This document shows positions 25,852-62,283 of a DNA stretch of 64,000 nucleotides, piece by piece. Position 1 is the first letter of the stretch. Each line of letters opens with the position of its first letter. The DNA lies in the NCBI RefSeq assembly GCF_007753265.1, contig NZ_CP036349.1, forward strand, positions 4,435,363 to 4,499,362. Direction: 5' to 3'. The position numbers and the translations under genes are program-made. The stretch is from Botrimarina mediterranea (GTDB lineage Bacteria; Planctomycetota; Planctomycetia; Pirellulales; Lacipirellulaceae). The notes beneath the pieces are model-generated. The model made no database searches and was not told the origin of the DNA. It saw only the letters and a program-made list of their open reading frames with translations.

Positions 25852-27492
<1,641 letters not shown>

Positions 27493-51858: not shown

Positions 51859-53412
51859 TCAAACCGCGTTGCGGCGGATGTTGGCGGGGGGGCCGCCGCC
51901 GGCTTGGGCGCTGTTCACGGCGGCGACGAACGCCTTGGTGCTCGCTTCCACGGTGTCGGTCGAGACACCGCGGCCGCGGTAGAGGCGGCCGTCGCTGATC
52001 GCCTCGATGTTGGCCTCGCCCTGCGCGTCCTTGCCCTTGGAGACGCTGTTAACGCGATAGTCGGTCACTTCGAGCTGGATGCCGGCGACCTTCTCGACCG
52101 CGCGGAACAGCGCGTCGAGCGGGCCGTCGCCGCCGAAGAACGTCTCGGTCGTTTCTTCGCCCTTCTCTTTGGGCCCACGACGGAGCGTCACGGTAGCCGA
52201 GGCCGGTTCGTCGGTGTGCGTCTTCACGTCGTACGAGACGAGCGACCAGTCGCGCTCGCTCGGCGGTCGCTTGTCCACCAGCGCGATGAGGTCGGAGTCG
52301 TAGACCTCCTTCTTCTTGTCGGCGAGCCGCTTGAACGCCTCGAAGACTATGTCGAGCTTGTCGCCTTCGACCGGGTAGCCCAATGCCTTCAGGCGATCCG
52401 ACAAAGCCGCCCTACCAGAATGCTTGCCGAGCACGAGGTCGGTCTTGGTGAAGCCGACGTCCTCGGGCCGCATAATCTCGTAGGTCGTCGGTTCCTTGAG
52501 CATGCCGTCTTGGTGGATGCCCGACTCGTGGGCGAACGCGTTGCGGCCGACGATCGCCTTGTTACGCTGCACCTCCATGCCGGTGATGCTCGAGAGCAAG
52601 CGGCTGGTGGGAACGAGGCGCGTCGTGTCGATGCGGGTGTCGGCCTGGTAGTAGTCGTTGCGAGTGCGGAGCGCCATGACGATCTCTTCGAGCGAGCAGT
52701 TGCCGGCTCGCTCGCCGATGCCGTTGATGGTGCACTCGATCTGCCCAGCGCCCGCCTCGATGCCGGCAAGGCTGTTGGCGACCGCCATCCCCAGGTCGTC
52801 GTGGCAGTGCATGCTGATGACGGCCTTGTCGATGTTCGGCACCCGATCGACGAGCGTCTTGATGTGGTTGAACATGTGCGTCGGCGTGGCGTAGCCCACG
52901 GTGTCTGGAATATTGACGGTGGTGGCGCCCGCGTTGATGGCGGCCTCCACCACTTCACAGAGGAAATCCAGCTCGGTCCGCGCCGCGTCCTCGGGCGAGA
53001 ACTCGATGTTGTCGCACAGGTTACGGGCCCGCTTCACGCCCTCGACGGCGCGGCGGACGATCTCGGCCTTGTCCATCCGCAGCTTGAACTCGCGGTGGAT
53101 CGCACTGGTGGCGAGGAAGACGTGGATCCGCGGGTGCTCGGCGCCGCGGACCGCCTCTCCCGCGCGGTCGATGTCCTTGTCGTTGCAGCGGGCGAGGCCG
53201 CAGACCTGCACCCCCTTCACGGTCTCGGCGATCGACTTGACGCTCTCGAAGTCGCCTGGCGACGCGATCGGGAAGCCCGCCTCGATCACGTCGACGCGCA
53301 GGTCCGCGAGCGCCTGGGCCATCTCGAGCTTCTCAGCCAGGTTCATGCTGCAGCCGGGCGATTGCTCGCCGTCGCGGAGCGTGGTGTCGAAGATCGTGAT
53401 TGGGCGTGACAT
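51859..53412 (-). CDS. leuA: 2-isopropylmalate synthase
   Basis: The protein has 517 residues from ATG 53412, the usual length for type I LeuA. The catalytic barrel opens with [38 protein letters not shown] supplies metal ligands, and [17 protein letters not shown] is the second HCS-family signature. The C-terminal LeuA regulatory domain (from about residue 385, [17 protein letters not shown]) should give feedback inhibition by leucine. It condenses acetyl-CoA with 2-oxoisovalerate in the first step of leucine synthesis. The region upstream contains a leucine-rich leader peptide and a terminator, so transcription attenuation is likely. Confidence 0.96.
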
Positions 53413-53466
53413 AGTCTTAAGTGCTTGGCGCCTGCGAAAAGGGTTCAAAGAAATGGTAAGGATACG

Positions 53467-53499
53467 AAAAAACCCCGCGGCCGCAGGGGCCCCGGGGTC
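53467..53499 (-). terminator. leuA attenuator terminator
   Basis: On the minus strand the hairpin with arms ACCCCG/CGGGGT (53493-53498 with 53472-53477) and G+C-rich inner pairing is followed by six T (A run 53467-53472). It lies between the leader peptide and leuA, 55 bases before the leuA start. Confidence 0.85.
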
Positions 53500-53538
53500 T
53501 GGCGTTTTCAGTAGTGCAGCTCGGACTGCGCGCCGTCC

Positions 53539-53595
53539 CTAGGACCCCGTTGGGGCTAGTAGGAGGAGCGGCAGTAGGAGGCTGGCAGTCGACAT
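53539..53595 (-). CDS. leuA leader peptide (attenuation)
   Basis: The reading frame from ATG 53595 to TAG 53539 encodes 18 residues: MSTASLLLPLLLLAPTGS. Seven of its codons are Leu within an eight-codon run (CTC CTA CTG, then CTC CTC CTA CTA), including three of the usually rarer CTA. It sits about 127 bases upstream of leuA and is followed by the terminator at 53467-53499. The pattern matches classical leu leader peptides. The bases around the stop (minus CGGGGTC, 53549-53543) can pair either with CCCC just before them or with the terminator arm, as expected for a ribosome-controlled switch. Ribosome site weak. Confidence 0.8.
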   Translation of the reverse strand: MSTASLLLPLLLLAPTGS

Positions 53596-53745
53596 GATTG
53601 GTGCTCGGCTTCGAGTATAGCCCCCAGACCCCCGCTAGGGCGACCGGGTTCGCCGAAAAAAGCCGGGCCGATGGCAATCCAAGAGCGAGCCGGGGCGTCC
53701 CCGACCCCGGCTGAATCAACTACACGCTTCCCCACAACGAGCGAA

Positions 53746-61919: not shown

Positions 61920-62200
61920 CCGCCTAGCTTACCAGAGAGGGCAAGTTGTCCCAGATATTCCGATGGTCTCCCGCTAAGTACAAATGAGTGAAACGCCGAA
62001 CGCACGAAGCTTGCCCGCATCGAGGGAGGGTAACTGAGCAGGCCGCCAGAATGGCGTTCGAACCCTGAGTCGACGACGAAGCGCCGTCGGCGACAAAAAT
62101 AGCCTGTCGCCTGCCCGCCACGTCGAGGCCGTGCATCAATACTCGTAACGCAGCGTGGCGAGATCATGGCGAAGCCATGTCGAGACCGCCCAAAAACCAG

Positions 62201-62283
62201 TACCGGAGGTGGGAGTCGAACCCACACGCCCTTGCGGGCAGCGGATTTTGAGTCCGCCGCGTCTGCCATTCCGCCACTCCGGC
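62201..62283 (-). tRNA. tRNA-Leu (CAA)
   Basis: It is read on the minus strand. The acceptor stem is GCCGGAG with CTCCGGT and discriminator A. The anticodon loop CTCAAAA gives anticodon CAA. A long variable arm (CTGCCCGCAAGGGCGT) marks it as class II, as expected for Leu. The T arm holds GGGTTCGACTCCC. CCA is not encoded. It sits in a gap between the GNAT and GH28 genes. Confidence 0.95.

Follow-up and report, generated by a model that had tools for sequence, protein, structure and literature searches.

Ribosome-mediated attenuation is well known in other bacteria. The enteric trp, his and leuABCD leaders consist of a short open reading frame rich in codons for the end product, three alternative helices and an intrinsic terminator, followed by a gene of the same pathway, and the locus described here is built from the same parts. 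In the ilv-leu operon of Staphylococcus aureus, a Leu-rich leader peptide is followed by a terminator 52 nt after its stop codon, and Leu-dependent read-through has been proposed on the basis of mutant and promoter-activity evidence (PMC5794164). At leuA itself, the actinobacterial LEU element is described as forming either a pseudoknot or an alternative fold; the other elements of an attenuator are missing, and attenuation is thought unlikely (PMC1262725).

For the Planctomycetota, the original prediction, which was made from the DNA sequence alone, stated that no description was known. This agrees with the searchable literature, which leaves subscription journals mostly outside: among the matches listed, no title or abstract opening describes planctomycete attenuation or a leader of leuA or DAHP synthase. 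One paper counts upstream open reading frames in Planctomycetes, and leuA is absent from its main text (PMC4833913); the strings Planctom- and Pirellula do not occur in PMC8632094. The 'Rhodopirellula-1' motif is listed for Proteobacteria and Planctomycetes with the entries '?', 'y' and '?' (PMC2864571). This motif may be linked to the leuA leader.

The window analysed here is a 64,000-nt stretch of the 5.87 Mb genome of Botrimarina mediterranea, whose closest two named LeuA relatives are both labelled Pirellulales bacterium. The features of the locus are collected in Table 1. The leuA product scores 714.9 bits against TIGR00973 (cut-off 598.7). The leader frame MSTASLLLPLLLLAPTGS has 18 codons, seven of them for Leu and three of these CTA, and reads ATG TCG ACT GCC AGC CTC CTA CTG CCG CTC CTC CTA CTA GCC CCA ACG GGG TCC TAG. 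The original prediction of this minus-strand frame at 53595-53539, with its Leu and CTA counts, is exact on direct reading, and the motifs CCCC (53555-53552), CGGGGTC (53549-53543) and GACCCCG (53499-53493) all lie where it had placed them. The hairpin and T-run that it described ahead of leuA are also found, as a terminator (53500-53467) with the TIGR00973 match behind it; on folding, the stem pairs 53500-53488 with 53482-53470, and the six-T run is at 53472-53467 (minus).

Table 1 Features of the leuA leader region, with positions in the window and the basis of each assignment
Feature	Position	Strand	Basis
-10-like element TATACT, 18 nt before leader ATG	53614..53619	-	Direct reading
Leader ORF MSTASLLLPLLLLAPTGS, stop TAG	53539..53595	-	Direct reading; Leu-rich ORF kept in relatives; third codon positions free
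Leu run CTC CTA CTG (CCG) CTC CTC CTA CTA, putative sensor codons	53557..53580	-	Direct reading and CTA bias
Segment 1, predicted anti-antiterminator, pairs with stop region 53541-53525	53560..53575	-	Minimum free energy (MFE) fold of truncated free RNA; 1:2 own-versus-swapped test
Small hairpin in helix 1:2, GCCCC AAC GGGGU	53544..53556	-	Folding
Segment 2, predicted antiterminator strand across stop codon	53531..53548	-	MFE of truncated RNA, ribosome masked on Leu codon
Segment 3, predicted antiterminator partner and terminator 5' arm	53486..53504	-	Folding; flank-only pairing test
Intrinsic terminator hairpin (segments 3:4) with six T	53467..53500	-	Folding; helix covaries in relatives
leuA, 2-isopropylmalate synthase, proposed controlled gene	51859..53412	-	TIGR00973

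The 146-nt leader region folds 2.6 sd better than its own shuffles (1 of 200 as good), and a generic terminator scan of 713 nt gives one terminator-like site against a shuffle mean of 1.1, which is no excess. Such single-sequence statistics are not decisive for the leader by themselves; on the sequence evidence, it is conservation that is decisive.

A total of 110 LeuA loci was assembled, from 30 genomes found by a kinship search (58 of 59 genomes matched) and 80 named contigs. Loci of Rhodopirellula maiorica (L076), Stieleria tagensis (L099) and Roseiconus nitratireducens (L110) are in this set. The scan upstream of leuA looked for frames 8-45 codons long that have five or more Leu within nine codons and a T-run behind them. 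The comparison of relatives, which had been suggested with the original prediction, shows the Leu-rich frame to be conserved: frame and T-run are present at 84 of the 110 loci (80 distinct, four genomes occurring twice) and in 31 of 53 upstream regions fetched from other orders of the class. The scan finds no such leader at the remaining 26 loci, among them L016 from the window's own family, with none in 531 nt upstream of leuA. The other orders belong to a second sample of 100 further upstream regions, drawn from the same family, the same order, other orders and other classes. All five same-family loci have a leader (4/4 when loci repeating a named contig are left out), as do 23 of 31 from the same order (20/27 on the same basis). 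Pooled, these give 24 of 31 loci new to the first sample, or 28 of 36 counting five repeats. The other-order groups range from complete (f22 15/15, f24 2/2, f26 2/2, f25 1/1) to partial (f21 6/18, f23 5/15). In other classes the scan is positive in 4 of 11 genomes, at least one of them spurious: L204 has no stable hairpin (-0.5 kcal/mol) and was rejected, while the candidate leaders of L198 and L200 look good. As a control, 316 overlapping tiles of the window were scanned on both strands, and the sole match is the leuA leader itself, in two tiles. A chance origin of the Leu-rich leader was rejected on the strength of this conservation.

A covariance model, R1, was built including the window's own leader, which it therefore matches by construction. 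It recovers L125, L051, L145 and L144, all missed by the Leu criterion (E below 1e-9), and L070 in part; among the 26 loci that are negative by the scan, the gain is L051 and part of L070 only. Relaxed criteria applied to 35 loci (34 without a leader and L134, already loosely positive) find five, which count for little by themselves because the relaxed control also gave 5, in 158 tiles.

The RNA can form three alternative helices. In the window, the stalled state is predicted to have an antiterminator of 16 pairs, slightly interrupted, between 53548-53531 and 53504-53486, the masked fold as a whole amounting to -32.0 kcal/mol. The 7-bp pairing CGGGGTC:GACCCCG, which the original prediction took to be the antiterminator, does exist, but as a lesser alternative to these 16 pairs across the stop codon, which are preferred by MFE. 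Its CCCC:GGGG hairpin is likewise present, but is only the inner part of a larger helix 1:2, formed by Leu codons (53575-53560) with the stop region (53541-53525). Similar pairings are found in relatives, where segment 2 commonly starts near -5 to -7 and ends near +5 to +10 of the stop. In typical relatives a sequence such as CCUUAGGGUUCG spans the stop codon and the terminator 5' arm contains CGAACCCUGAGG; L067, for example, has 13 contiguous antiterminator pairs. Alternatively, the stop region can pair with a segment lying earlier in the frame, in many cases AACCUG where the Leu run begins. The window's genus has other letters in all of these segments (GGGGUCCUAGGGACGGCG for the stop region and CGCCAGACCCCGGGGCC for the arm in the window itself), and the pairings persist.

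The dependence of these pairings on the ribosome was computed by cutting the RNA just after segment 3 and masking 28 nt for the ribosome, the mask size and the equilibrium folding both being simplifications. The score averages, over the first nine bases of the arm, the probability of pairing with the stop region. For the window it is 0.00 in free RNA, 0.00 with the ribosome at the stop, and 0.53-0.71 with the ribosome on each of the seven Leu codons, so that the antiterminator appears only with the ribosome on a Leu codon, in line with the original prediction that a stalled ribosome prevents the terminator. Across 80 leaders the free, stop and Leu means are 0.42/0.02/0.63, and Leu exceeds stop in 75 of them; the 35 leaders from other orders and classes give 0.33/0.04/0.65, and controls with codons and spacer shuffled give 0.08/0.03/0.14. 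Switching, defined as a score above 0.5 on stalling and below 0.1 at the stop, is seen in 71% of leaders against 5.8% of 640 shuffled controls. When a free score below 0.25 is added, the full three-state pattern is seen in 22.5% and 2.0%, respectively. The model thus separates the stalled and finished states well, while the state with no ribosome varies between species. Predicted sequestration by helix 1:2 is clear in the window yet not universal in the family, because in many cases the antiterminator is already preferred in the free RNA (family mean 0.42).

The complementarity of the segments was measured by comparing each leader's own duplexes with duplexes swapped between leaders. This test is register-free, was run before column covariation, and ignores shared descent. 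For 80 sequences the own 2:3 duplex energy is -15.94 against -13.53 kcal/mol swapped, and the own 1:2 energy is -14.06 against -12.51 kcal/mol, with 0/5000 swaps as good in both cases; the same is true of the 64 sequences below 90% LeuA identity. With 19 representatives below 80% identity, 2:3 gives 21/5000 and 1:2 gives 727/5000, which is not significant, and with five below 75% the values are 45/5000 for 2:3, 859/5000 for 1:2 and 157/20000 for the flanks. This flank-only version of the 2:3 test excludes bases of the terminator stem, and gives 0/20000 for 75 of the 80 sequences and 43/20000 for 17 distant representatives.

Shared descent was taken into account by edge-disjoint tree contrasts. 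These give 16 better, 12 worse and 12 ties for 2:3 (sign test 0.29, Wilcoxon 0.074), and 21/14/5 for 1:2 (0.16 and 0.075), so that neither helix is significant by this test. Four controls of the test give Wilcoxon p values of 0.10 to 0.59, and in a control that pairs downstream sequence with the stop region the mean effect is as large (-1.07, Wilcoxon 0.10). The flank-only contrasts are 16/13/8 (sign test 0.36, Wilcoxon 0.032), this being a narrower test that was chosen after the full result had been seen. Column covariation was calculated on a MAFFT alignment of 53 of the 80 leaders, those judged alignable by eye. The terminator helix clearly covaries: 92.6% of cells are paired, 9 of 12 pairs have two-sided changes, and 0/500 shuffles score as high. 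Column covariation is modest for 2:3 (30/500 shuffles do as well, and sliding by +1 gives a slightly better value) and for 1:2 (23/500), likely due to a register shift between GGG and GGGG forms. The covariation that the original prediction put forward as a check is borne out to the extent that pairings match better within than between species, but the tree-corrected version is only marginal.

Taken together, the computations show that the parts of the sequence are present and conserved, and that the pairings are mutually exclusive and depend on the position of the ribosome. A frame rich in codons for the end product lies before a pathway gene, a terminator lies between them, and a computed, stall-dependent antiterminator excludes the terminator. 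Judged by these features of sequence and model, the leuA leader is a leader-peptide attenuator. It is highly likely that leuA is under classical ribosome-mediated transcription attenuation, and that this control is widespread in this planctomycete class.

We infer translation of the leader, charged Leu-tRNA as the signal, the transcription start site and the timing of RNA polymerase. The polymerase would start just upstream of the leader frame with a ribosome behind it. When charged Leu-tRNA is ample, the ribosome would advance to the stop codon and cover segment 2, of which that codon is part, so that the 3:4 terminator forms and transcription stops before leuA. When it is scarce, the ribosome would stall on the CTA/CTC run and cover segment 1; segments 2 and 3 would then pair across the stop codon, the terminator would not form and leuA would be transcribed. 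With no ribosome, helix 1:2 would form and, in the window's species, the terminator would win again.

In the window the -35 position has diverged, with no match to the TTGACC that is common in relatives, many of which have GAACCTTGACC followed by a TANNNT element. A promoter-like pair, TTGA(C/A) and TANNNT separated by 15-19 nt, precedes 58 of 80 leaders but not that of the window. In 17 of the 58 (L006, L008, L009, L047, L059, L074-L076, L079, L080, L089, L097, L099, L100, L105, L109 and L110), only 6-9 nt separate the end of the -10-like element from the leader ATG, which suggests that these leader mRNAs are nearly leaderless. A strict sigma-70 scan finds no promoter upstream of the window's leuA, and this, together with the single terminator-like site that is no more than shuffles give, is what would be expected if the hairpin were a constitutive terminator or the end of an upstream transcript, with the Leu frame a chance by-product of GC-rich DNA and the leuA promoter downstream. 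We consider this very unlikely. The class repeatedly shows the frame, its spacing and a complement across the stop codon, the scan has no second match in the window, shuffled controls rarely switch, and the promoter-like pair precedes a large part of the leaders.

Codon use in the frame carries putative signs of translation. When leaders are aligned on the stop codon, bits per base average 0.41/0.53/0.16 at positions 1/2/3 of codons -16 to -6, in a set preselected for Leu richness. The last 16 codons hold 544 Leu of 1280 in frame 0, while the other two frames have 46 and 71, a count that is biased because the loci were selected for Leu-rich frames. CTA accounts for 66 of the 188 Leu codons of 25 family leaders, against 8 of 875 in their leuA genes; in 32 long non-overlapping open reading frames of the window, some possibly spurious, it makes up 92 of 1533. 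Sensing is sharper with a rare codon. Because CTA is also able to pair with UAG, part of the CTA bias may serve RNA pairing. Leaders such as MPTQNLLLPLLLLALMGS, MTRTNLNGLLLLLLARSEA and MNKNLSSLLPLLLLALSGPRP vary at both ends and retain the Leu run.

Conservation at the level of the peptide, itself biased by the choice of Leu-rich frames, would also fit a functional micropeptide or an upstream frame acting on translation by reinitiation, with no transcription attenuator, and upstream frames that raise initiation at the following gene have been proposed for many bacteria including Planctomycetes (PMC4833913). This reading is slightly less probable again. The gap from leader to leuA measures 126 nt in the window and, counted to the LeuA match, about 85 to 590 nt in relatives, whereas the spacing peak in that source is only at 10-11 bp; a covarying intrinsic terminator sits in the gap; and the ends of the peptide vary while the Leu runs stay.

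The leader region was also compared with known RNA families. In the window's leader region no Rfam 15 family reaches its gathering score; a permissive scan yields 20.8 bits for sX11 (gathering 70) and, on the other strand, 12 bits for a lncRNA family (gathering 45). The T-box model matches nothing in the window at gathering and nothing in 53380-53700 up to E 10. Across 13 related loci, three tRNAs are all that the Rfam scan finds, and RF01743 has no match there or in the window. The identity of the leader as a T-box, a riboswitch or a known leader family was thus rejected for want of an Rfam match in the window or the 13 relatives. The least probable of the three alternatives is that another Leu-sensing RNA (T-box or riboswitch) or a protein-bound element is responsible, with the frame incidental, for although leuA has elsewhere been assigned a non-attenuator RNA, the LEU element (PMC1262725), no Rfam family is found at gathering score in the leader region and the spacer from stop to terminator is not conserved, unlike a ligand pocket.

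Searching the genome with R1 gives one further match below E 0.01 (2.9e-4), before a DAHP synthase gene. A leader MLTWRSDYRFTYFFGFFYGAKGPGVVRNAA with a terminator is found there (G000:C1:4655671-4655832 minus; L219, leader ORF about 2835-2743 minus). The sample of DAHP synthase loci comprised 30 out of 43 genomes with the gene, and a Phe/Tyr/Trp-rich leader with a T-run precedes DAHP synthase at all 30 loci fetched, own genome included (relatives L221-L250). A control scan for Phe/Tyr/Trp leaders finds none in 316 window tiles. These leaders do not fit the switch model if segment 2 is placed at the stop (0.03/0.02/0.08), and allowing it anywhere in the frame gives 0.36/0.42/0.60; the geometry differs from that of leuA. 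On this evidence the Phe/Tyr/Trp-rich frame is a candidate second leader of the genome. The host genome also has a second, more distant DAHP synthase.

No comparable leader is found within 1.5 kb upstream of trpE, hisG or ilvB (22 loci each, some being fragments or paralogues). Weak Trp- or Ile-counted matches occur at 6 of these 66 loci, against 3 of 83 control tiles (those of the leuA leader excluded). Three of the ilvB loci among these six, L301, L308 and L310, share a related frame of 43-45 residues with PP(D/E)WAPW and a T-run behind, about 270-350 nt ahead of their ilvB match; this frame does not resemble a leader. The window itself contains an acetolactate synthase large-subunit homologue (25897-27492 minus; 365.6 bits, below the cut-off of 538.35), which is separate from the genome's ilvB at C1:5604947.

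At no fewer than 25 of the 110 loci, leuA is followed on its own strand by a tRNA-Leu(UAA) gene (at least 23 distinct loci; L018, L022, L026, L039, L042, L045-L050, L054, L057, L059, L067, L084, L088 and eight others), 17 of these genes being 1.5-2.0 kb after the leuA start. The window has no tRNA-Leu(UAA) behind leuA; its tRNA-Leu(CAA), at 62200-62283 minus, is unlinked to leuA. Where a tRNA-Leu(UAA) does follow leuA, read-through of the attenuator might also supply leucine tRNA. It is possible, though we hold it as a tentative and rather doubtful idea, that these elements form an old attenuation regulon of the Planctomycetia, in which CUA-rich, often leaderless leaders would gate leuA (and tRNA-Leu(UAA) where it lies behind) and an aromatic leader would gate DAHP synthase. 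If so, leucine shortage would raise both the enzyme and the leucine tRNA, and ribosome sensing would be placed at the entry enzymes of pathways.

Planctomycetes have complex internal membranes and a condensed nucleoid. If the attenuation proposed here is correct, coupled transcription and translation with sensing of ribosome position operates in these bacteria, and since a working attenuator would need ribosomes close behind RNA polymerase at these genes, the leader would provide a direct, testable handle on coupling. The leuA leaders would also add an RNA family that is widespread and unmatched in Rfam 15, with a second candidate before DAHP synthase.

The control is very probably of a known type, in a phylum without a described case in the literature searched. 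Compared with the enteric leaders, the planctomycete leader occurs in another phylum, lacks an Rfam match and has its antiterminator strand running through the leader stop codon; the 17 of 58 leaders with a short distance from the promoter-like pair further suggest that some are leaderless. The S. aureus ilv-leu system differs in that its operon is led by ilvD and its peptide contains three Ile codons, and its antiterminator is said to pair with the poly-U tail, unlike the planctomycete one (PMC5794164). The Leu/phe leader RF01743 of Lactococcus (PMC2864571) is alike as a Leu leader by name only. The actinobacterial ilvB and trp attenuators are similar in having leader peptides before branched-chain genes in high-GC bacteria, and unlike the actinobacterial LEU element, planctomycete leuA has a conserved terminator and a predicted switch (PMC1262725).
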